This document shows positions 16,465 through 34,301 of a stretch of 64,000 nt of DNA, piece after piece. Position 1 is the first letter of the stretch. Each line of letters opens with the position of its first letter. Source of the DNA: Candidatus Kirkpatrickella diaphorinae (GTDB taxonomy: Bacteria; Pseudomonadota; Alphaproteobacteria; Acetobacterales; Acetobacteraceae); the NCBI RefSeq assembly GCF_025736875.1, contig NZ_CP107052.1, forward strand, positions 608,001 to 672,000, given 5' to 3'. A program made the translations under genes and the position numbers. Below the pieces are notes generated by a model. The model saw only the letters and a list, made by a program, of their open reading frames with translations. It was not told where the DNA came from and did not search any database.

Positions 16465-16851
16465 ATGCGCGCTTATCTTCGCCAAATGCCGTTTGTTGCT
16501 GTTCTCGGCCTCGCTGCATGTCAAAGCGGGTCGGATCGCGACCGTTATCCGGTATTTTTTGCGCCGAGATCGGTAAAACTGTCGAGCACGGCCGACGCCG
16601 TTATCGCGCGCGCCGCAAGTGATGCCATCAAGGAGCATGCGCGCAAAGTCGCCGTTATTGGCCATGCTGAAGCTGGACGCAATTTGTCAGCGGATGAGCT
16701 TCTGGCGATGAAGCGCGCCGCAAATGTCGCGGAAGCCCTTGCACGCCAGGGTGTTGATGGGCGCATCATTCAGCAGAAATCCCGCGCCCCGCGCAATGCG
16801 AAGGACGCCGTTGTCGCGTCACGGACCGTCACCATCGAGATTGACCCCTGA
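16465..16851 (+). CDS. Small OmpA-like lipoprotein
   Basis: A 128-residue predicted lipoprotein. The lipobox LGLAAC puts the lipidated cysteine at residue 19 after a short basic and hydrophobic signal. The mature part resembles an OmpA/Pal peptidoglycan-binding fold in outline: VFFAPRSVKLSSTADAVIARA, then KVAVIGHAEAG and LLAMKRAANVAEALARQGVDG, and a closing strand RTVTIEI. The Asp and Arg residues that hold diaminopimelate in true OmpA-C domains are not obvious, so peptidoglycan binding is uncertain. Anchoring in the outer membrane is inferred. Confidence 0.7.
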   Translation: MRAYLRQMPFVAVLGLAACQSGSDRDRYPVFFAPRSVKLSSTADAVIARAASDAIKEHARKVAVIGHAEAGRNLSADELLAMKRAANVAEALARQGVDGRIIQQKSRAPRNAKDAVVASRTVTIEIDP

Positions 16852-16907
16852 AGAAGGCCGCATCGTGCGCGTTAAGCGTCGACGCCATGTAAGGCTGGGC
16901 CCCGTCC

Positions 16908-18767
16908 ATGGATGTTGAAAAACGCCATGACCCACGTGGCGTGCTTGAGACCGTTTTTGGTTATAGCAGTTTCCGAGGTTTACAGGAGGAGGTTGTCTTT
17001 GCCGCCATGCAGGGGCAGGATCTCCTCGTCGTCATGCCGACAGGCAGTGGCAAAAGCCTGTGCTATCAATTGCCAATATTATGCCGCGAGGGGATGGGAC
17101 TTGTTATATCCCCGCTGATCGCGTTGATGAATGATCAGGTGGCGGCGATGCGGCAACTCGGCATTGAGGCGGCGGCGCTGCATTCCGAGCTGGAGGCGGA
17201 TGAGCTGGGCACATTGCGGGACCAGCTGCGGCGCGACGAAATCAAAATCCTTTATATTTCGCCGGAGCGGCTATTGGCGTCAGGCGTCGCGTCATGGCTC
17301 GGCAGACGTCAGATTTCCCTCATCGCGATTGATGAGGCTCATTGCGTTTCCGTTTGGGGACATGATTTCCGGCCGGATTACCGGGAGCTTGCGCGCCTCC
17401 CGGGCTATTTCCCCGGAGTACCCCGCCTTGCCCTGACCGCGACGGCGGATCCGAATTCCCAGAAAGACATTCTCGCATCTCTCGACATGCGTGATGCGCG
17501 TGAGTTTGTTTCGAGCTTTCATCGCCCCAATCTTCACCTCGCGGCGCGTCCCAAAAACGCTGAGATCGCTGACCTGCTTGCCATCCTTAAAGCCCATGAG
17601 AAACATGCAAGCATCGTCTATTGTGGCACGCGCAATAAGACGGAGGTGATTGCCGAAAAGCTTCAAAAACAAGGTTTTGTCGCGCTACCTTTCCATGCAG
17701 GATTATCTTCTCAGGAGAAGCGCGCCGTCCTGACGCGCTTTAGAAGCGGGGAGCCGCTGGTCGTGGTCGCCACAATTGCCTTCGGCATGGGCATCGACCG
17801 GCCCGATGTGCGCTGCGTGGTGCATCTCGATATGCCAGCCTCACCGGAGGCGTATTATCAGCAGATCGGGCGCGCCGGGCGTGATGGGGAGCGCTCTCAG
17901 ACCTACCTGCTTTACGGCATGGAAGACATCGCCCGCGCGCGATACTGGCTCGACCAGTCCGCTGCGCCGGAGGAAGCCCGCGCAATCGCGCGCAACCGCC
18001 TCGATGCGATGATCGCCTTTGCCGAGACAACAAAATGCCGCACCCAGCAATTACTTGCCTGTTTCGGCGAGGATTTCGAGGGGAAATGTGGGCATTGCGA
18101 TAATTGTCAGCGGCCGCTCAACCTTTTCGATGCGTCCATACCCGTGCAGAAAGCGCTTTCCGCAATCTACCGCATGGGACAGCGCTTCGGCGCGACGCAG
18201 GTCGTGTCCGTTTTGCGTGGGCGCCTCACCACCGCCGTTGCGGCCCATGCGCATCAGCATCTGACAGTGTTCGGCACGGGTAAGGACGAGACTGAGAAAT
18301 GGTGGCGCAGCCTTCTGCGCCAGCTTGTCGCGCATAATATCATCATGCTGGATGGTGAGCATAAGGTCCTGAAACTCAACGGCCAGGAGGTGCGGCCCAT
18401 ATTGCGTGGTGAGCGTGCCGTCATGCTGAAGGATGAGCGGGACCTTCATAAAGCTGCCAGCCGCGCCGCCATGTCCGAACGCGTATTGTCAGAGCTGACG
18501 GTCGCGGAAGAAGACGCGCCGATATTTGAGGCGCTGCGCAATTTCCGCAAGGAGGAGGCGCGGCGTCAGAACATCCCGCCTTACCTGGTATTTCATGACG
18601 CTGTCATCGCGGCGCTTTGCGCGGAGAAGCCGCCTGATATGTCAGCGCTCGAACACATCAGAGGGTTGGGGAATAATAAAATCGCGCGCTATGGCCAGCA
18701 GATCCTGGATATTCTGCGTGCGCACGGACGCGCCCTTCCACGAGAGCTGGAAGCTGAGGCTGGCTAG
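16908..18767 (+). CDS. recQ: ATP-dependent DNA helicase RecQ
   Basis: RecQ unwinds DNA 3' to 5' in the RecF recombination pathway and at stalled forks. The 619-residue protein has Walker A MPTGSGKSL (about 44-52), the DEAH box with aromatic loop IDEAHCVSVWGHDFRPDY (from about 140), motif VI YYQQIGRAGRDG, the zinc-binding cysteines in CFGEDFEGKCGHCDNC (about 384-399), a winged helix, and a C-terminal HRDC domain ending LGNNKIARYGQQILDIL. The site before the ATG is weak. It converges on the PCuAC-like gene with 8 bp between stops. Confidence 0.95.
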   Translation: MDVEKRHDPRGVLETVFGYSSFRGLQEEVVFAAMQGQDLLVVMPTGSGKSLCYQLPILCREGMGLVISPLIALMNDQVAAMRQLGIEAAALHSELEADELGTLRDQLRRDEIKILYISPERLLASGVASWLGRRQISLIAIDEAHCVSVWGHDFRPDYRELARLPGYFPGVPRLALTATADPNSQKDILASLDMRDAREFVSSFHRPNLHLAARPKNAEIADLLAILKAHEKHASIVYCGTRNKTEVIAEKLQKQGFVALPFHAGLSSQEKRAVLTRFRSGEPLVVVATIAFGMGIDRPDVRCVVHLDMPASPEAYYQQIGRAGRDGERSQTYLLYGMEDIARARYWLDQSAAPEEARAIARNRLDAMIAFAETTKCRTQQLLACFGEDFEGKCGHCDNCQRPLNLFDASIPVQKALSAIYRMGQRFGATQVVSVLRGRLTTAVAAHAHQHLTVFGTGKDETEKWWRSLLRQLVAHNIIMLDGEHKVLKLNGQEVRPILRGERAVMLKDERDLHKAASRAAMSERVLSELTVAEEDAPIFEALRNFRKEEARRQNIPPYLVFHDAVIAALCAEKPPDMSALEHIRGLGNNKIARYGQQILDILRAHGRALPRELEAEAG

Positions 18768-22737: not shown

Positions 22738-23544
22738 ATGTCACGTTCATCCGAAATGTCAAAGTGTTTGCAGTTATATGACCACGTCTTAATAACTGGT
22801 GCATCGGGCGGCATTGGCGCGGCGCTTGCGCAACATTATGCGGCACAGGCGCGACGTATTTCCTTGTGGGGGCGTGACCTCCAGCGTCTCGAATCTTTAG
22901 CAAAAATTTGCGCGGCGGCGGGTGCCGAAACCGATATCGTCGTCCTTGACCTCAGCAATATGCAGGAATCTCTCGATGCTTTTAAGAGAGCTGAGGCACA
23001 GGCGCCGATTGATCTCCTTTTTCTCAATGCGGGGGTTTCGGATATGCGTCAGCCAGGGCGGGTTGTCGAGACGCCTAACATTCTTCTTGAGACGGCGTTG
23101 GTCAATTACGCGGTGCCGACAGGGCTCGCGAGTGTCGCGGCCGAGCTTATGGTCAAACGCCGTCGCGGCCATATCGTCTTCACCGGCTCTGTCGCGGCAT
23201 GGCATGATCTGCCTTTCTCGGCCGCTTACTGTGCTTCAAAAGCCGGGATAGAGCGATTTGCCGGGGCTTTGCGGGCGGCATTGACCCCCTATAACGTAAA
23301 TGTGACTTTGGTTTCTTTCGGGTTTATTGACACTCGGATGAGCCGCCGCATTAACGGGTTTAAACCTTTCCTCGCCAAGCCGGAGAAGGCTGTTTCCGTG
23401 ATCAGTAAAGCGTTAAAACAACGACGCGGACATGTTACTTTTCCCAGGATCTTCAATCTGTTACGCATGATTGAAGCTGTTACGCCACGAAATCTTGCCC
23501 ATATGTTGTTGCGTTCGATTCGGGTATCACAGGGCCCGCGTTAA
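22738..23544 (+). CDS. Short-chain dehydrogenase/reductase
   Basis: A classical SDR of about 268 residues. The cofactor motif TGASGGIG is at about 20-27, the NAG motif at FLNAGVSD, the catalytic serine in FTGSVAAW, and the active-site YCASK. The C-terminus (PRIFNLLRMIEAVTPRNLAHMLLRSI) is hydrophobic and basic, as in SDRs that work on lipid substrates at the membrane. The start could also be the ATG at 22756. It is divergent from the GNAT-like gene and 98 bp before glk. Substrate not known; 3-ketosphinganine-type reduction is only a possibility. Confidence 0.8.
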   Translation: MSRSSEMSKCLQLYDHVLITGASGGIGAALAQHYAAQARRISLWGRDLQRLESLAKICAAAGAETDIVVLDLSNMQESLDAFKRAEAQAPIDLLFLNAGVSDMRQPGRVVETPNILLETALVNYAVPTGLASVAAELMVKRRRGHIVFTGSVAAWHDLPFSAAYCASKAGIERFAGALRAALTPYNVNVTLVSFGFIDTRMSRRINGFKPFLAKPEKAVSVISKALKQRRGHVTFPRIFNLLRMIEAVTPRNLAHMLLRSIRVSQGPR

Positions 23545-23642
23545 AGGGTAAACAGACAAATTTGAACATTCAGCCTGGCATGACCCCGCGCCTCATTATG
23601 CGCCGTCAGGGGCTGAAGACAGGAAAAGATAAAGGCAGTTTG

Positions 23643-24614
23643 ATGCAGGAAGTAGTTGCGATCGATATCGGCGGAACCCACGCGCGTTTTGCGGTCGCGA
23701 AGATTGCTGACGGACGGGTGACGGAACTTGCGCCTGAAGTCACTTTGCGCACGGCCGACCATGCCAGCCTGGCGCTGGCGTGGCGGGCTTTCGCGCAGAC
23801 TCAGAAAAACCCGCTGCCACGCCAGGCGGGCATCGCGATTGCGTGCCCGATCCAGGGCAATATTCTCAAAATGACGAATAACCCCTGGGTTATTCAGCCT
23901 GATAATCTCAAGCATAGTCTCGGGCTTGATGATTTTGTGCTGATCAATGATTTCGGTGCTGTTGCCCACGCCGTCGCCCAAGTGGATGACGCGCATCTGA
24001 AGCATCTCTGCGGCTCTGACGTGCCATTGCCAGAGACAGGGTCCATCACGGTTGTCGGGCCGGGGACAGGCTTCGGTGCGGCCTGCCTCCTGCGTCAATC
24101 AGGACGTTACGACGTGATTGAAACGGAGGGGGGGCATATTGATTTTGCGCCGCTCGACCGGGTGGAAGACCGCATCCTGACCGAACTGCGCGGGCGTTTC
24201 ACGCGCGTGTCGGCTGAGCGTGTCGTATCAGGTCCGGGCCTGAGCAATCTTTATGAAGTCATCGCCGAGATGCACGGTGCGCCCGCCGCCATACGCCATA
24301 ATCGGGAATTATGGGATCAGGCCATTCGCGGTAATGACGACATCGCCGCCGCCGCGCTTGAGCGCTTCTGCCTCTCACTCGGTTCAATTTCCGGCGATCT
24401 CGCTTTGGCTCATGGGGCGCAGGGCGTTGTGATTGCGGGTGGGGTCGGGTTGCGTCTTGCGGACCATCTCCCGCACTCCGGCTTCGCGGAGCGCTTCATT
24501 GCAAAAGGTCGTTTTGAGACGATGATGAGCCGTATCCCCGTCAAAATCATCACTTATCACCAGCCGGGCCTCCTTGGTGCCGCTGCGGCATACGCCAATC
24601 GGCGCCCTGGCTGA
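23643..24614 (+). CDS. glk: Glucokinase
   Basis: Glk phosphorylates glucose to glucose-6-phosphate with ATP. The 323-residue protein has the phosphate-binding loop VAIDIGGTHARFAV, the adenosine-site GPGTGFGAACLL, and the substrate motif ETEGGHIDFAP with its Glu and His, plus GVVIAGGVGLRLAD near the end. Length fits the E. coli type (321). The start ATG is preceded by AAAGG; an upstream TTG in the same frame adds 27 residues that the family lacks. Confidence 0.93.
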   Translation: MQEVVAIDIGGTHARFAVAKIADGRVTELAPEVTLRTADHASLALAWRAFAQTQKNPLPRQAGIAIACPIQGNILKMTNNPWVIQPDNLKHSLGLDDFVLINDFGAVAHAVAQVDDAHLKHLCGSDVPLPETGSITVVGPGTGFGAACLLRQSGRYDVIETEGGHIDFAPLDRVEDRILTELRGRFTRVSAERVVSGPGLSNLYEVIAEMHGAPAAIRHNRELWDQAIRGNDDIAAAALERFCLSLGSISGDLALAHGAQGVVIAGGVGLRLADHLPHSGFAERFIAKGRFETMMSRIPVKIITYHQPGLLGAAAAYANRRPG

Positions 24615-24722
24615 GCCCTCAGCGATGGCGCATGGCGATGCGACAGGGGCATCACCATTCAGGATGGTTTGACCTGACAGGGCGGCGGGGACGACACGGC
24701 CTTTTCGGAACGTTATGTTTTT

Positions 24723-24736
24723 CATGCATATGCATG
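24723..24736. repeat. Perfect 14-bp palindrome between convergent glk and amidase genes
   Basis: CATGCATATGCATG reads the same on both strands. It lies in the 173-bp gap between the ends of glk and the amidase gene, at the junction of core genome and accessory region. No function can be assigned. Confidence 0.5.
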
Positions 24737-24787
24737 GTGGTTCCTGGCATCGACACAGGACCGTGCGCCCCGACAAGTTAGCTGGGC

Positions 24788-25570
24788 TTATAAATCCGGA
24801 TATTTTTCAGCGAGGGAGAGGATGATCGCGATCGTCTCATCATCGAGAACGCCATCATATTTTTCGGGGCGATAATGGAGTTGTACGGCGCGTATCAAAC
24901 TTGTGAAGCCCGCTGACGTCGACGCGCCGGAAACGTCATATCCGAACCGGTTCAGAAGTTCGAGGATCATGCACCGACTTGGCCGCAGCATCTTCAGCCC
25001 GGATGCGGAAAGCACATCAAGGAATTTCTGCTTGTCCGCCGCATCGTACCATGTACCAATGCCTTCATCATAAAGCTCTTTCCACGGAAATTTCGGTCCC
25101 GGGTCACTTTTGCGGCTGGGTGCGATGTCAGAGTGGGCGACGACATTGCGCGGATCAATATCGGGGTAACGCTGCAAAATACTGTGCACGAGTTCCTTCA
25201 CCGCCGCGATTTGCTTCTCCGGATAGGGGGGGAAGGTGAAGACGCCGTGATCATCCGTCGCCAGATTGACAATCTCAATGCCGATGGATGAGTGATTGAG
25301 GTTGTTGCGGCCGCGCCAGTAGCTTACTCCGGCATGCCAGGCGCGATCTTTTTCATCCACAAGATTGAAGATTTTTGTGTCCGTGTAACCGGCAGCCCGA
25401 TAGGAGGGATCTGTCTCATCTGGTACGATGTAATGCACACTGACGAGAGGGCCGGTGAGGGCCGCGATTGAGCTCGCGAAATTCCCGGCAGTGTAATGGA
25501 GAACGAGAAAACGCTGCCGATTATCGAAACCTGAAACCGATCGATATTTATTATAAATAATTTCGTGCAT
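24788..25570 (-). CDS. N-acetylmuramoyl-L-alanine amidase, AmpD/AmiD type, with peptidoglycan-binding-like tail
   Basis: This zinc amidase cleaves the bond between MurNAc and L-Ala in peptidoglycan or its fragments. The 260-residue protein has an Amidase_2 domain (about 20-165) with zinc ligands His25 (LVLHYTAG), His146 (VVAHSDIA) and Asp156 (SDPGPKFPW), and Glu99 in IGIEIVN. Residues 200-256 form a three-helix peptidoglycan-binding-like domain (LIRAVQLHYRP, YDGVLDDETIAIIL). No signal peptide is visible. It closes the phage-tail cluster on the same strand, so it may be an endolysin, or a host AmiD-like recycling enzyme. Confidence 0.85.
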   Translation of the reverse strand: MHEIIYNKYRSVSGFDNRQRFLVLHYTAGNFASSIAALTGPLVSVHYIVPDETDPSYRAAGYTDTKIFNLVDEKDRAWHAGVSYWRGRNNLNHSSIGIEIVNLATDDHGVFTFPPYPEKQIAAVKELVHSILQRYPDIDPRNVVAHSDIAPSRKSDPGPKFPWKELYDEGIGTWYDAADKQKFLDVLSASGLKMLRPSRCMILELLNRFGYDVSGASTSAGFTSLIRAVQLHYRPEKYDGVLDDETIAIILSLAEKYPDL

Positions 25571-26025
25571 ATTATTATTCTTTCTCTTTTTTTTTGAAAA
25601 AGAAGTTGCGCGCAACGTTCTATCCGACGTGGAATGCCGGATAAGTTCCACCTGTCAAGCGTTTGAGATTGTATCTTTATTCAGGGGTACGCACGCGCGA
25701 GGTCCGAACCTGCAATGAGGTCGCCATCCCGCGCATGGAGCAGTCAACCTTCTGTCCATGTTTTTGAGGCAGAGGGGGACGGGATGCGGCGAAGATCAGG
25801 AGGAAACCGGACAAATTTGCGGACATTAACTGTCTCTTCCAATTTCTTGAAATCGATATTTTTACCGACGCTTCATTATAAATTGATTTTGATTTTCAGG
25901 CAACATCAATGCCCCGCCAATCACCGATCCGCACATATACTCGTCGTTTTTTCGCGTACTGAATGCGTGGTGCCGCTCCGTCTGAGAGAAGGGGGAGAAC
26001 GTCTGGCCGCCGCGATGGGAAGGGG
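25571..26025 (-). other. 455-bp gap after the CotH gene, with a possible coding remnant
   Basis: No complete gene is supported. On the minus strand, in a frame shifted from the CotH gene, an open stretch of about 44 codons runs from the CotH stop to a TGA at 25896-25898. It ends KKRRVYVRIGDWRGIDVA, which matches KKLYVKMGDW inside the CotH protein conservatively at every position. It has no start codon of its own after the CotH stop. The rest of the gap is AT-richer leader sequence of the amidase gene. Confidence 0.4.
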
Positions 26026-27417
26026 TCATCTGAGTTGATCCTGTTCCTGCGGGTATCCCCACTCCTGATCCATCCAGGCGACGCGCTGGCGGAACCAGTC
26101 AATAATGTAGGAGACTGTCCAGCGCCCATCATAGGGGATATCCACCCGGACTGTGTTATTGCCCCAGAGCGGCCAGATTTTGAGGTCATCCACCATCGAA
26201 TCCCGGTCAATCAGGGCGATCTGGCGCAGGATGATCTTCTTCAGATTGTCAGTTGAGATGATCCCGCTTCCACGCAGTTCCGCCCATCTGGCACGCAGTT
26301 CAGGGCGGAGGCGGCGCGTAAGGATGTCCAGAAATCCGGGATCCTGATCAGCAGGATAACCACGCTGCGTGATCCACCCGATTTTATCCGGCGCGGCCTG
26401 GTTGATGTCCTGCCATGCCGACACCCCGAAGGCGCGGTCATGATCAAACGGCCAGATGCTCCACTTCTTCGCATCCCACGTGCCAAGGAAGAAATTATTC
26501 TGAAATGAATCATAGGACCCGGTCACATTGACCAGCAAAATATAATCGAGCCATGATTTCAGGTGCAGATATTGATGCATCTCCTGTCGCAACCGGGTTT
26601 CATCGGCGCGACAAGCCTGGAACCATCTGAACAGCCTTTCGCACGCCGCCTGCACGACGGGGGCTTTTTGTGAGATGTCATCCTGCTCTTCATAATCTTT
26701 GATTTTGGGGGATTGGATCGACCATCCTGTGCTGTCAAAATCACGACCCCAAAGGTCGATCAAATGCTCAGCCTGCATCAGGATGTGGTTACGATTGGAA
26801 TCGTCCATTAGATAATCATCGTTGGTCGTGCGTGATCGCCAGACGACGAGTTGCTGGAATTTCCCGTTCCACCATAATTCACATGGCAGGCCATACGTGC
26901 TGAAGGACGCCGTCAGATGCATGCCGAGATCATGCTTGTCCCAATATTTATAAGCTGACATCGGCGCCAGGAGACGATCAGGGTGGGCATGCATCTGTCG
27001 CCACAGCTCGGTTGTGGTGGTTTCTCGCACCATTGTCCGATCCGTGCCGTAACCTTTCAGCGTGATCGTCGAGACGGGCGACCAGTCACCCATTTTCACA
27101 TAAAGCTTTTTTCCGTTCGAGGGACGCCGCAATTTGAGATTGAAGTTTTTCTTCATCGCTTCCTGACTCGATTGGCCTTGCACATTGCGCAGGCCAACCG
27201 CACTGAAAAGCGGAAGGGTCCCGTCATAGACGGAAATGGAAACCGGAATATTGGAGGCGTTCGGGTCGGAGAAATCGCCATCGATTAGAAAGCGCATGAC
27301 GCGGCGGGGCCGGTCGATGGTGACGGTTTTGAATTCATTGATGGCGGCCGGACCCCACGCCAGAACGCCATCATGTTCAACATAACCCGTTGTCGGAATT
27401 TTGACGTCCTTGCTCAA
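26026..27417 (-). CDS. CotH kinase-like protein in a phage tail operon
   Basis: A 463-residue protein with the CotH protein-kinase-like fold, known from the Bacillus spore-coat kinase CotH. The visible markers are the basic KKNFNLKLRRP strand (89-99), NVTGSYDSFQNNFFLGTWD (297-315) and the metal-binding WPFDHDRAFG (322-331). There is no signal peptide. The start is TTG in a 4-base overlap (TTGA) with the upstream small gene, behind an AGGA site, so it is translationally coupled to tail genes. Activity and target are unknown; a tail or particle protein is a plausible substrate. The C-terminus may be extended by a frameshift. Confidence 0.7.
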   Translation of the reverse strand: MSKDVKIPTTGYVEHDGVLAWGPAAINEFKTVTIDRPRRVMRFLIDGDFSDPNASNIPVSISVYDGTLPLFSAVGLRNVQGQSSQEAMKKNFNLKLRRPSNGKKLYVKMGDWSPVSTITLKGYGTDRTMVRETTTTELWRQMHAHPDRLLAPMSAYKYWDKHDLGMHLTASFSTYGLPCELWWNGKFQQLVVWRSRTTNDDYLMDDSNRNHILMQAEHLIDLWGRDFDSTGWSIQSPKIKDYEEQDDISQKAPVVQAACERLFRWFQACRADETRLRQEMHQYLHLKSWLDYILLVNVTGSYDSFQNNFFLGTWDAKKWSIWPFDHDRAFGVSAWQDINQAAPDKIGWITQRGYPADQDPGFLDILTRRLRPELRARWAELRGSGIISTDNLKKIILRQIALIDRDSMVDDLKIWPLWGNNTVRVDIPYDGRWTVSYIIDWFRQRVAWMDQEWGYPQEQDQLR

Positions 27418-27755
27418 AACCCCATCCTCCCGAATATCAAGCCGGATTCATCAAATCGCGTCAGAGTCACGACGCTGATGGCCCCGGGGCGGCTGTCGAT
27501 AAACGGTATCCGCCCTTCCACCCAATGCACATCAGAAGGCCATGTCGGTTCACACCCGCCATAGACAGGTTGCTGAATGACGAGCGTCATGGACTGGCGT
27601 TCTGCCGGATGGCCTTTTTCGATGGTGAGGGCGACATTCCCGGACAGGACCAGGCAGTAAACAATGTCGCCGTATAGCGCTTGCGGCAGATTTTGCGGAC
27701 CCGACACGTTAAGGCGTGTCTTGACCGGCACGCCGTAACCGGGATTAGACGCCAT
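27414..27755 (-). CDS. Small phage tail-associated protein
   Basis: A 113-residue protein of no assigned function. Its middle and end (SMTLVIQQPVYGGCEPTWP, then VHWVEGRIPFIDSRPGAISVVTLTRFD) resemble the beta-rich distal module seen in many phage tail and tail-fibre proteins, in which a W-G-x-P step and a GAxD-type strand recur. It overlaps the fibre gene by 11 bases and the CotH-like gene by 4, with a GGAGG site inside the fibre's last codons. This tight packing is typical of phage operons. It may be a fibre partner or chaperone. Confidence 0.6.
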   Translation of the reverse strand: MASNPGYGVPVKTRLNVSGPQNLPQALYGDIVYCLVLSGNVALTIEKGHPAERQSMTLVIQQPVYGGCEPTWPSDVHWVEGRIPFIDSRPGAISVVTLTRFDESGLIFGRMGF

Positions 27756-31371: not shown

Positions 31372-31644
31372 ATGCGCATCACATTCGATCCCGCGAAGCG
31401 AGAGAAGACCTTGAGCGAACGAGGCCTCGATTTCCGTGATGCCGCGTCGGTGTTCTCGGGGCGGACTGCGACCGTCGAAGATACGCGTTTTGATTATGAC
31501 AAGCCTCGCTTCATCACCGCCGGGCATTTGTCAGGACGTCTTGTTGTGATCGTATGGACACCAAGGGGTCAATCGCGGCGCATTATTTCAATGAGGTATG
31601 CACATGAGAAAGAAACAAAGCTCTGGTCAGCCCGAATTGCGTGA
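31372..31644 (+). CDS. brnT: BrnT ribonuclease toxin
   Basis: BrnT is a RelE-like ribonuclease toxin of type II systems. The 90-residue protein shows the family pattern: MRITFDPAKREKTLSERGLDF, DAASVFSGRTATVEDTRFDY, then VVIVWTPRGQSRRIISMRYAHEKE, where the C-terminal strand carries the RIISMRxA catalytic arginine. No Shine-Dalgarno precedes the ATG, in line with a leaderless message. It overlaps brnA by about 40 bases, so the pair is co-expressed. Confidence 0.92.
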   Translation: MRITFDPAKREKTLSERGLDFRDAASVFSGRTATVEDTRFDYDKPRFITAGHLSGRLVVIVWTPRGQSRRIISMRYAHEKETKLWSARIA

Positions 31645-31861
31645 CCCGGACGATGCGCCCGAACTCACGGACGCATTTTTCGACGCCGCGACCATTCGCG
31701 AAGGGTCCCGCATCGTCCGCCGCGGCCGCCCGCGTAAGGAGACAACGAAAACTCAGGTCACGTTGCGCCTGGATGCAGACATCGTCGAGACCTATCGCCA
31801 GCAAGGCCCGGGCTGGCAGTCACGCATCAACGCCGCACTGCGCGCGACGCTTGGGCGTTGA
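31604..31861 (+). CDS. brnA: BrnA antitoxin
   Basis: BrnA neutralises BrnT and represses the operon. The 85-residue protein has a polar N-terminal half, which binds toxin, and a C-terminal ribbon-helix-helix domain (TQVTLRLDADIVETYRQQGPGWQSRINAALR). The ATG at 31604 is preferred because the GAGGT site lies 6 bases before it; the ATG at 31598 touches that site. The plus strand after the gene shows no terminator. Confidence 0.9.
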   Translation: MRKKQSSGQPELRDPDDAPELTDAFFDAATIREGSRIVRRGRPRKETTKTQVTLRLDADIVETYRQQGPGWQSRINAALRATLGR

Positions 31862-32034: not shown

Positions 32035-33135
32035 TCAAACGACAGTCAGGTGTCGCTTACTTTTTTCGGGGGCCGCAATCTTACCGACCAATCCGAACAC
32101 AAGCTTTTCGACCTCGTCGTGAGGCATATTGAGGTGTCTAGCTAAATCTTCCTTCGTCATCTTTCTGGACCACATATCTTTCAAAACTTTGTCCCAGACC
32201 ACGGATGTCTCTCTTTCGATGCCTTCGGCCTCGGAGGTTCGATACCCAGATCGACTTAAATCAATACATAGCGTCCGATACTGCCAATCGCTGAGCATTT
32301 TTAATCGATGAAGTCGGCGTGTTAGAGCCATAGCAGAGACTTTCCAACGTTTTTTCGCGTCAATGATGCGTCGCGCGTTGATGAAATTCCGTGGGATCAC
32401 CGCTTTGACATCGTGCTCCGGCATTAAAAACGCAGATGCGAAACGGTCGGCGTCAATTTCTTCCGACTCACTACCATTGTTGGACTTCGATCTTCCCGAC
32501 TTAGGAAGATCACCATGTTTGTGCAGAACCAAATGCCCTAATTCGTGACCACAATCGAAAATGCTGCGTTCTGGAGTTTTGAACGTGTTGAGAAAAATGA
32601 ACGGTCTTTCGTTACGCCAGAAGGAAAACGCGTCGATCGACTTGTTTTTTTCCTCAAGCGACAAAATGCGAACGCCTTTTGATTCGAGTAGTCGGAGAAC
32701 ATTACCAATGGGTCGATCACCCAAAGCCCACTCTTGCCTTAAGTGGCTTGCAGCGGTCTCCGCGTCTCCGATAAGTCTGAGATCAGGAAGGGATGGTTTT
32801 GGCAAATAATATTCTTGCTCAAGCCAATCATAAATCTCCAATCCAAGCGATCCTGCCCAAAGTGCGGCATTGCGTTGCGCAGCGTTCATTTTTTTCATGC
32901 TGCGAAAGCTAACAATATCTGTTTGGAGCTGCTCCGGCGCTTCTTTGAAGAAAAAAGCTTCTGGGTAATTCAAAGTTTGAGCAAGGCGAGCCAAAGTGTC
33001 TGACGACGGAGATTCAGTTGGGCCACTTTCCAAGCGCGAAATCGTGACCGCATTGATGCCGCTCAGCTCAGACAATTGGCGACCGGTCAAGCCGCGGCGT
33101 TCGCGAGCAAGGGTCAATCGCTTACGGCAAAACAT
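32035..33135 (-). CDS. XRE-family regulator with ImmA/IrrE metallopeptidase domain
   Basis: A 366-residue fusion of an N-terminal XRE helix-turn-helix (about 5-58: GLTGRQLSELSGINAVTISRLE) and an ImmA/IrrE zinc peptidase domain with HELGH at 197-201 and the third-ligand region EEIDADRFASAFLMP at 225-239. Relatives cleave phage-type or stress repressors to switch on genes. The gene begins directly after the upstream unknown gene (2-bp gap), so they form one operon. Its sequence is clearly more AT-rich than the core genes, pointing to transfer. Confidence 0.88.
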   Translation of the reverse strand: MFCRKRLTLARERRGLTGRQLSELSGINAVTISRLESGPTESPSSDTLARLAQTLNYPEAFFFKEAPEQLQTDIVSFRSMKKMNAAQRNAALWAGSLGLEIYDWLEQEYYLPKPSLPDLRLIGDAETAASHLRQEWALGDRPIGNVLRLLESKGVRILSLEEKNKSIDAFSFWRNERPFIFLNTFKTPERSIFDCGHELGHLVLHKHGDLPKSGRSKSNNGSESEEIDADRFASAFLMPEHDVKAVIPRNFINARRIIDAKKRWKVSAMALTRRLHRLKMLSDWQYRTLCIDLSRSGYRTSEAEGIERETSVVWDKVLKDMWSRKMTKEDLARHLNMPHDEVEKLVFGLVGKIAAPEKSKRHLTVV

Positions 33136-33822: not shown

Positions 33823-34106
33823 TCTGAAAAATTAGTGCTGTCAAGTTACGGCAATGAGCTCAAAGCAATTTCGATCTAAGACACTTTGATGCACCCATGA
33901 GCGCTGCCAAGGTAGGCAATCTGAGCGCCATCACGTTGGCGGCCCAGATGACTCTTCACATGGCCCGGTCATTTTATGACCGCAATTGCTCCCGCCGTCG
34001 CAATGTGCCGAAGGTTGAAGAAAGCATCAAGGGTGGGGCGCGCCGCGTTGCTGAGAGGCCTTGCTTGGGAGAGATCCGCTCTTACGGCGTTTTGATGTGA
34101 CAAAAT

Positions 34107-34142
34107 AAAACTGTAAAACAGCGCACCCAAAACTGTAAAACA
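34107..34142. repeat. Two 14-bp direct repeats, 22-bp spacing
   Basis: AAAACTGTAAAACA occurs at 34107-34120 and again at 34129-34142, identical, with an 8-bp GC-rich spacer. The 22-bp period is about two helical turns, so a dimeric or tandem protein could bind one face. It lies about 40 bp from the 3' end of tRNA-Cys. Confidence 0.7.
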
Positions 34143-34183
34143 ATTTCCTAAAGTGCTGAAAAACCCGCATTTTTTATGCAAGG

Positions 34184-34257
34184 TGGAGGTCCGGGCGGGA
34201 ATCGAACCCACATTGACGGATTTGCAGTCCGCTACATAGCCATTCTGCCACCGGACC
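34184..34257 (-). tRNA. tRNA-Cys (anticodon GCA)
   Basis: A 74-base cloverleaf on the minus strand with the 7-bp acceptor pair GGTCCGG/CCGGACC, U73 discriminator (the cysteine identity base), encoded CCA, the anticodon loop CTGCAAA giving GCA, and a T-arm with GGTTCGATTCC. The D-arm and variable loop match other bacterial tRNA-Cys genes (GGCTATGTAGCGGA). Confidence 0.97.
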
Positions 34258-34271
34258 TCGGCTGTGGCGCC

Positions 34272-34301
34272 TATATCTCTTTATCTCCCGTCACACGTCA
34301 A
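34272..34301 (-). promoter_or_regulatory. Likely tRNA-Cys promoter
   Basis: On the minus strand TTGACG (34301-34296) is followed after 18 bases by GATATA (34277-34272), which ends 14 bases before the tRNA. The -35 is strong, the -10 only fair. Confidence 0.4.

Follow-up and report, generated by a model that had tools for sequence, protein, structure and literature searches.

The known receptor-facing domains of phage tail fibres act as binders, depolymerases, or esterases. The closest characterized relative of the protein described here is Bacillus CotH (PF08757; 5JDA), and, according to the available text of PMC9973265, CotH phosphorylates the spore coat proteins CotB and CotG. In the text of PMC12189002 that was accessible, CotH residues are matched to D166, N171, and D184 of PKA, and the adenine is described as sandwiched by Tyr142 and Trp245. 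The consulted part of PMC9973265 also states that CotH2 and CotH3 of Rhizopus bind GRP78; these extracellular ligands are eukaryotic, are not associated with a fibre, and are likened to the present protein by description, not by sequence. The only relevant open-licence papers on phage CotH that were found are PMC8008677 and PMC4159848, and a single sentence in print was found that mentions fusions of CotH and lectins in phages as unstudied. Like those CotH-C-type lectin targets of diversity-generating retroelements (DGRs), which place CotH beside receptor-binding domains in phage genomes, the CotH protein studied here keeps the company of a fibre; unlike them, it is encoded by a separate gene, which is accompanied by those of an S74 fibre and a small connector-like protein, and the Pfam scan revealed no domain in it besides CotH.

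The gene lies in a 64,000-nucleotide stretch of the Candidatus Kirkpatrickella diaphorinae genome (family Acetobacteraceae), here called the window, and is the only CotH gene of that genome (Table 1). We propose that its product, an atypical protein kinase of the CotH family, would have been a distal tail-fibre subunit in the parent Mu-like phage. Taken as a whole, the reading of such proteins as distal fibre subunits that are probably active kinases and act in assembly is given a probability of about 45%. An earlier note on this DNA had called the gene CotH type on account of several short motifs; these are present in the translation, and the profile search agreed, with a score of 67.4 bits against a cutoff of 23.8 (E value, 2.1e-18) and an alignment that joins residues 79 to 449 to positions 3 to 322 of the 322 in the profile, i.e., to the whole profile. 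The NCBIfam search gave no match for the protein, and its PHROG matches (phrog_27151, phrog_9391, and phrog_28731) are each labelled "unknown function." The kinase domain begins near residue 38, and no fibre or baseplate anchor of its own was seen. The gene overlaps the small gene by 4 nt, which in turn overlaps the S74 gene by 11 nt. Both overlaps and the TTG start, which had been pointed out before, recur in a viral contig (L027) with a CotH protein of 74% identity; the start and frame are therefore not due to chance, and a chance ORF or a frame error was ruled out.

Table 1. Features of the window and DGR repeats at other CotH loci (handles precede coordinates outside the window)
Feature	Position	Strand	Evidence
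CotH-family atypical kinase gene, 463 aa, TTG start	26026..27417	-	Profile, model, catalytic D303/N308/D325
Small connector/fibre-tip protein, 113 aa	27414..27755	-	Weak PHROG tail-fibre matches; model like phage connectors
Tail fibre with S74 chaperone domain, 450 aa	27745..29097	-	PF13884 E 2.5e-7; PHROG tail fibre E 8e-24
Phage tail tube protein, 415 aa	29275..30522	-	Phage_tube_2 PF18906 E 1.4e-26
Endolysin (N-acetylmuramoyl-L-alanine amidase), 287 aa	24788..25651	-	Amidase_2 PF01510 E 2.9e-27; PHROG endolysin E 1.9e-55
HTH + IrrE/ImmA-type peptidase	32035..33135	-	PF06114 E 5.8e-23, PF01381 E 3.9e-12
DGR repeats	L011:10927-11323, L025:13326-13627, L034:9471-9785		Mismatches all at template adenines

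A structure model built from nine homologues (pTM, 0.68) has the kinase-like core that such a gene would be expected to encode. Its first 29 residues are of low confidence, and residues 38 to 455 align with the CotH kinase structure; the best match, at a mean model pLDDT of only 60.5, was Bacillus cereus CotH with Mg/AMP (5jda; Z score, 22.2; root mean square deviation, 4.3; 326 aligned residues), to which the structural alignment gives an identity of 10%. The second-best fold family was that of CtkA (Z score, 9.6). Among predicted viral structures, seven matches with an E value of 1e-3 or better were obtained, including "CotH kinase" entries and gp353 of Bacillus phage G. According to phmmer and profile searches, D303 is the NFDG aspartate of 5jd9, and D325 and D327 are the PWDYD aspartates. 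The counterparts of PKA D166, N171, and D184 were assigned to D303, N308, and D325 on the basis of our own alignment, in which D303 and N308 retain the five-residue spacing of the PKA pair.

Conservation was assessed for 74 of 76 CotH domains, which were fetched with phage queries and fell into 30 clusters at 80% identity (one of them, L026, is not from a phage). L033, in which the domain is in two pieces, and the truncated L073 were left out of the 76; L031, L032, L057, L067, and L074 (incomplete matches) and L094 to L096 (same contigs as L053, L055, and L048) were not put in the set. L012, L013, L014, and L016, going by their equal lengths, duplicate the contigs L024, L023, L020, and L021, and L018 is the window, whereas L015 and the broken L017, which have no twin contig, and L104 and L105, which were found later, lie outside the set. 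The domain of L033 (8930 to 10789) is divided by an inserted stretch into the pieces 44 to 168 and 323 to 611, and a BppU_N gene comes next.

With a median pairwise identity of 22%, all of the clusters keep D303, N308, D325, D327, Q80, G81, N91, and K121. Just 9 of the 404 match columns are invariant, in an alignment that comes from an iterated profile and is thereby biased toward conserved columns; D303, N308, and D325 are among these nine, and the chance that three named positions would all fall among nine randomly placed invariant columns is 8e-6. The loci had been fetched by short patterns, some of which spanned N91, K121, or D325; D303 and N308 lay outside every pattern of the four single-protein scans, and the alignment scans drew on the region of about residues 89 to 126. 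The position of Trp245 holds tyrosine or phenylalanine in every cluster (phenylalanine in the window and tyrosine in most relatives). The position of Tyr142, at about residue 213 or 214 of the window protein in an alignment that may be off by one, is variable and aromatic in few clusters, in view of which nucleotide binding may differ from that of CotH. The window protein thus shares with Bacillus CotH the fold, the three PKA counterparts, and possibly a role in the assembly of a protein shell, whereas its place in a phage tail-fibre set and, by alignment, the two adenine-facing positions set it apart. Judged from these residues, catalytic competence of window-type CotH is reasonably probable.

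Within the family, CotH was found in 6 of 299 genomes drawn from a larger group, at seven loci. An S74 gene adjoins CotH at all seven (truncated in G046 and at the contig end in L016), on which ground a host-encoded secreted kinase was rejected. The small gene is present at six of them, shortened in L013 (71 amino acids [aa]) and not seen in L015. The same gene set was identified in L019 (Acetobacter malorum), L022 (a Commensalibacter metagenome-assembled genome), L027, L028, and L030 (S74 in two frames), while the contig of L029, on which the small gene and a shortened CotH gene were found, ends before S74, and L031 holds S74 and the small gene, with CotH cut by the contig end. The earlier note had proposed to look for the order tube-fibre-CotH in other Acetobacteraceae and in phages; the grouping of S74 fibre and CotH is conserved. 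An IMG/VR scan with the window CotH protein alone retrieved no relatives.

The closest relative of the window set is that of L027, where the small protein is 58% and the S74 protein 49% identical to the window counterparts. Upstream in L027 are DNA_circ_N and GpP domains, Baseplate_J, and Mu Gp48, and the set is the end of a Mu-like myophage baseplate/fibre module, with CotH last; baseplate wedge proteins are also encoded upstream in L012 and L014. Between the window and L027, the CotH genes differ at 93 first, 55 second, and 246 third codon positions, and of the changed codons, 166 are synonymous and 122 nonsynonymous; in the S74 genes, the corresponding numbers are 164, 133, and 269 positions and 106 and 224 codons. 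From these counts, CotH looks to be under more constraint than S74, and its better preservation in comparison with both neighbours is more in keeping with an enzyme than with a specificity determinant. The next large ORF past CotH in L027 (11918 to 13687) is a SIR2-like (SIR2_2) gene, possibly defence cargo.

The PHROG tail-fibre matches of the small protein were weak (best E value, 3.7e-5). Its model (pLDDT, 85.9) gave nine best structure matches with Z scores of 5.9 to 8.6, followed by a tenth at 3.2; a Z score near 8 is possible by chance at this level, and the phage block nonetheless stands apart from the other matches. Eight of the nine are phage parts, i.e., two baseplate chains of Klebsiella phage KP1, the capsid spike of Pa223, three entries of CBA120 TSP4, a T4 baseplate chain (5iv5_AC, presumably gp10, going by its length), and T4 gp9; the ninth is 6o38, titled "chaperone-substrate complex" (Z score, 8.1; root mean square deviation, 5.3). 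Against predicted viral structures, 125 matches with an E value of 1e-3 or better were obtained, and several of the named matches listed are tail fibres or major tropism determinants. Similar in its model to the T4 and CBA120 connector domains, with a match strength that is middling, the small protein differs from them in being a free 113-aa protein. On the basis of the model, we read it as a putative connector that attaches the anchorless CotH. CotH, as the last member of the overlapping series S74 fibre-connector-CotH, would then probably dock via this connector-like protein.

The window locus is what is left of a prophage in decay, with about five phage genes. The description of the locus as a phage tail operon was accordingly right with respect to the phage genes and too generous with respect to the operon, which is incomplete. 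The gene for the HTH and IrrE/ImmA-type peptidase is a possible prophage regulator, assigned to the remnant by its position. A BrnT toxin and BrnA antitoxin pair (31372 to 31861, forward strand) lies beside the remnant, and a tRNA-Cys gene (34184 to 34257, reverse strand) lies near its right side; no 14-nt exact repeat joins positions 34101 to 34300, around this tRNA gene, to positions 23001 to 26100 as an att site. The window tube protein and amidase had no match in the 40,053-base L027 record; as that record is possibly a fragment, little can be concluded from their absence. Elsewhere in the genome are a Baseplate_J gene at ~1.530 Mb (L102) and a tail tube gene at ~1.636 Mb (L103), the product of which is 46% identical to that of the window. 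The remnant may be a mosaic, considering the tube and amidase without an L027 match and this second tube.

Since the phage in this genome is a remnant, the window CotH gene is probably a leftover of it. That the gene has no present function is likely, a view that is compatible at the level of the family with the explanation preferred here, so that the two probabilities do not add up. Consistent with this, only about five phage genes are left, and in G046, the only other genome of the genus examined, CotH, the amidase, and the tube are split and S74 is truncated. However, none of the three window ORFs for CotH, the small protein, and S74 is shortened, and the other phage genes mentioned above could be counted against a dead remnant, although no relative of S74, the small gene, or CotH was detected in the 20-kb stretches around them. 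The interesting object is the CotH family as a tail module rather than the window copy.

In unrelated phages, CotH is fused to tail anchors of three kinds, namely, a P2-type tailspike, an Acinetobacter tailspike, and BppU_N. In a Klebsiella P2-like phage (L009), the CotH gene is flanked by tail protein and sheath genes, and the N terminus of its product recurs in other phages (residues 1 to 107 in seven records at 55% and shorter or longer parts in more); the other proteins with this anchor are partly annotated as tailspike, tail fibre, or endo-N-neuraminidase. One of them was scanned, the 983-aa protein of L058, and had no Pfam match at an E value of 0.01 and hence no CotH. Among the Acinetobacter proteins, L046 and L047 are nearly identical to L008 throughout, while those of L048 to L056 are 82 to 100% identical to it in the first 50 residues, 58 to 72% in the next 50, and 12 to 43% in the CotH-bearing 50-residue blocks from residue 201 on. 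A related anchor (42 to 46% identity) is found on genes annotated as "Neuraminidase" (42%) and "tail spike." A shufflon-type recombinase (rci) is annotated downstream of the L008 fibre module (16802 to 17002). Lacticaseibacillus phage R3.3 has a BppU_N anchor and CotH in one protein, the first ~160 residues of which have matches in other phages among tail and baseplate proteins.

In a nonblind count in which the IMG/VR loci were from viruses only, 21 of the 30 clusters had neighbours or anchors of tail or fibre type, 8 of them through the S74 set and 13 by annotation or profile (L008, L009, L010, L048, L049, L053, L059, L060, L075, L077, L078, L079, and L085). Judged by eye, three more (L062, L086, and L097) seem to have a tail or fibre context, and five (L011, L025, L034, L061, and L093) were not assigned, L026 being the last of the 30. 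CotH is very likely a part of the tail. Of the two readings suggested earlier, phosphorylation of the particle or fibre and a kinase fold turned structural tail part, the second is well supported as regards the tail, at the level of the family and with the domain within the fibre in other phages; a purely structural, dead fold is argued against by the invariant catalytic residues. A cargo (moron) kinase that is at the end of the fibre module by chance and works free in the host cytoplasm would agree with the separate gene of the Acetobacteraceae, for which no anchor was seen, and with the SIR2-like gene next in L027, by which the module end does carry cargo. This is nevertheless very unlikely, as the overlap and the gene order are conserved and the domain is covalently part of anchored tail proteins in the Klebsiella, Acinetobacter, and Lacticaseibacillus phages.

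CotH neighbours or is fused to adhesins, including Mtd-like proteins, BspA repeats, and DGR targets. Homologous proteins are encoded downstream of the Klebsiella-type CotH genes (L009 and L075 to L079), and the three that were scanned with PHROGs (L009, L077, and L079) matched phrog_2889; some relatives of this partner are annotated as "BPP-1 major tropism-determinant-like," "antireceptor," or SUMF1 type, and many are hypothetical. DUF285 genes follow CotH in the Acinetobacter types L008, L049, and L097, and NatCom_3357 combines CotH (E value of 0.0014, below the cutoff) and LRR_5 within one protein. The adjacent adhesin was rejected as a general CotH-specific partner: the phrog_2889 partner matches 52 phage records, 48 of which, not each checked for CotH, are other than the four records that share this Klebsiella CotH protein. 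DGRs were identified at three CotH loci (BT-TP2, L025, and L034), in all of which a reverse transcriptase follows. The mismatches between template and variable repeats are at template adenines in 11 of 11 cases in BT-TP2 (112 nt) and, in 90-nt windows, in 14 of 14 in L025 and 6 of 6 in L034. The variable repeat is inside the CotH protein in BT-TP2 and L025 and in the next gene in L034.

These neighbours also bear on the main rival explanation, in which CotH is a binding or pedestal module of the tail tip whose kinase fold and pocket bind a host ligand or a nucleotide, and phosphotransfer plays no part in the life cycle. We keep a binding role as the main rival because CotH2 and CotH3 of Rhizopus are surface ligands, binding GRP78 according to the available text of PMC9973265. 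The anchors that carry CotH bear other tailspike parts in other phages, CotH changes rapidly on a fixed anchor, and its company consists of adhesins and DGR targets, all of which would suit such a module, as would the general scarcity of ATP outside cells. We nevertheless regard it as rather unlikely, since the three catalytic residues, kept by 30 of 30 clusters at so low an identity, are unexpected in a pure scaffold. The fast change of CotH on the Acinetobacter anchors fits a role in specificity, opposite to the comparison with L027, and both facts stand.

ATP is present at the site of phage assembly and scarce outside cells. In the explanation preferred here, the kinase would probably be active during particle assembly, when ATP is at hand, and its targets would be neighbouring fibre or adhesin proteins, just as CotB and CotG of the spore coat are those of CotH. 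On this analogy and on the availability of ATP, phosphorylation at assembly is favoured over an action on the next host; by itself, the proposal that CotH acts in assembly on tail proteins is tentative, at somewhat less than even odds. The adjacent adhesins belong to different families (phrog_2889, DUF285, and S74 with the small protein), so no shared substrate is in sight, which counts against it. Alternatively, during adsorption or entry, a virion-borne kinase could act on the recipient cell, with a surface protein, a glycan, or an inner target as its substrate. The fibre position and the company of receptor-binding modules would speak for this, but no source of ATP is known outside the cell and no delivery path was seen for a fibre tip, and we consider it quite improbable.

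The recurrence on unrelated tail anchors of a kinase fold with intact catalytic residues hints, at the level of sequence, at virus particles that bear kinases. More speculatively, and with the odds against it, tailed phages of several bacterial phyla could bear a live CotH kinase on their fibres beside fast-diversifying adhesins, a family of spore coat enzymes having been recruited to a second protein shell or to a target cell; these would be the first virion-borne CotH kinases. A kinase fold that recurs in this position would bring to phage tails an enzymatic class new to them and pose the question of the ATP source and the phosphorylation target. The three-gene module in Acetobacter prophages offers a tractable entry to proteins that a published survey, in its available text, calls unstudied.

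CotH is also encoded outside phages. It was identified in 4 of 385 Alphaproteobacteria genomes, i.e., those of the window, G122 (same family), G323, and G483. The CotH gene of G323 (L106) is near a contig end. The product of that in G483 (L107) has 910 aa and is hydrophobic in a stretch at its N terminus, and no phage genes were visible by eye in the operon; the phage CotH profile did not match this protein at an E value of 1e-3. At this locus (L107, 5698 to 9844, reverse strand), the cellular CotH gene adjoins genes for a 230-aa membrane-like protein and, by eye, what looks like a VTC-type domain.
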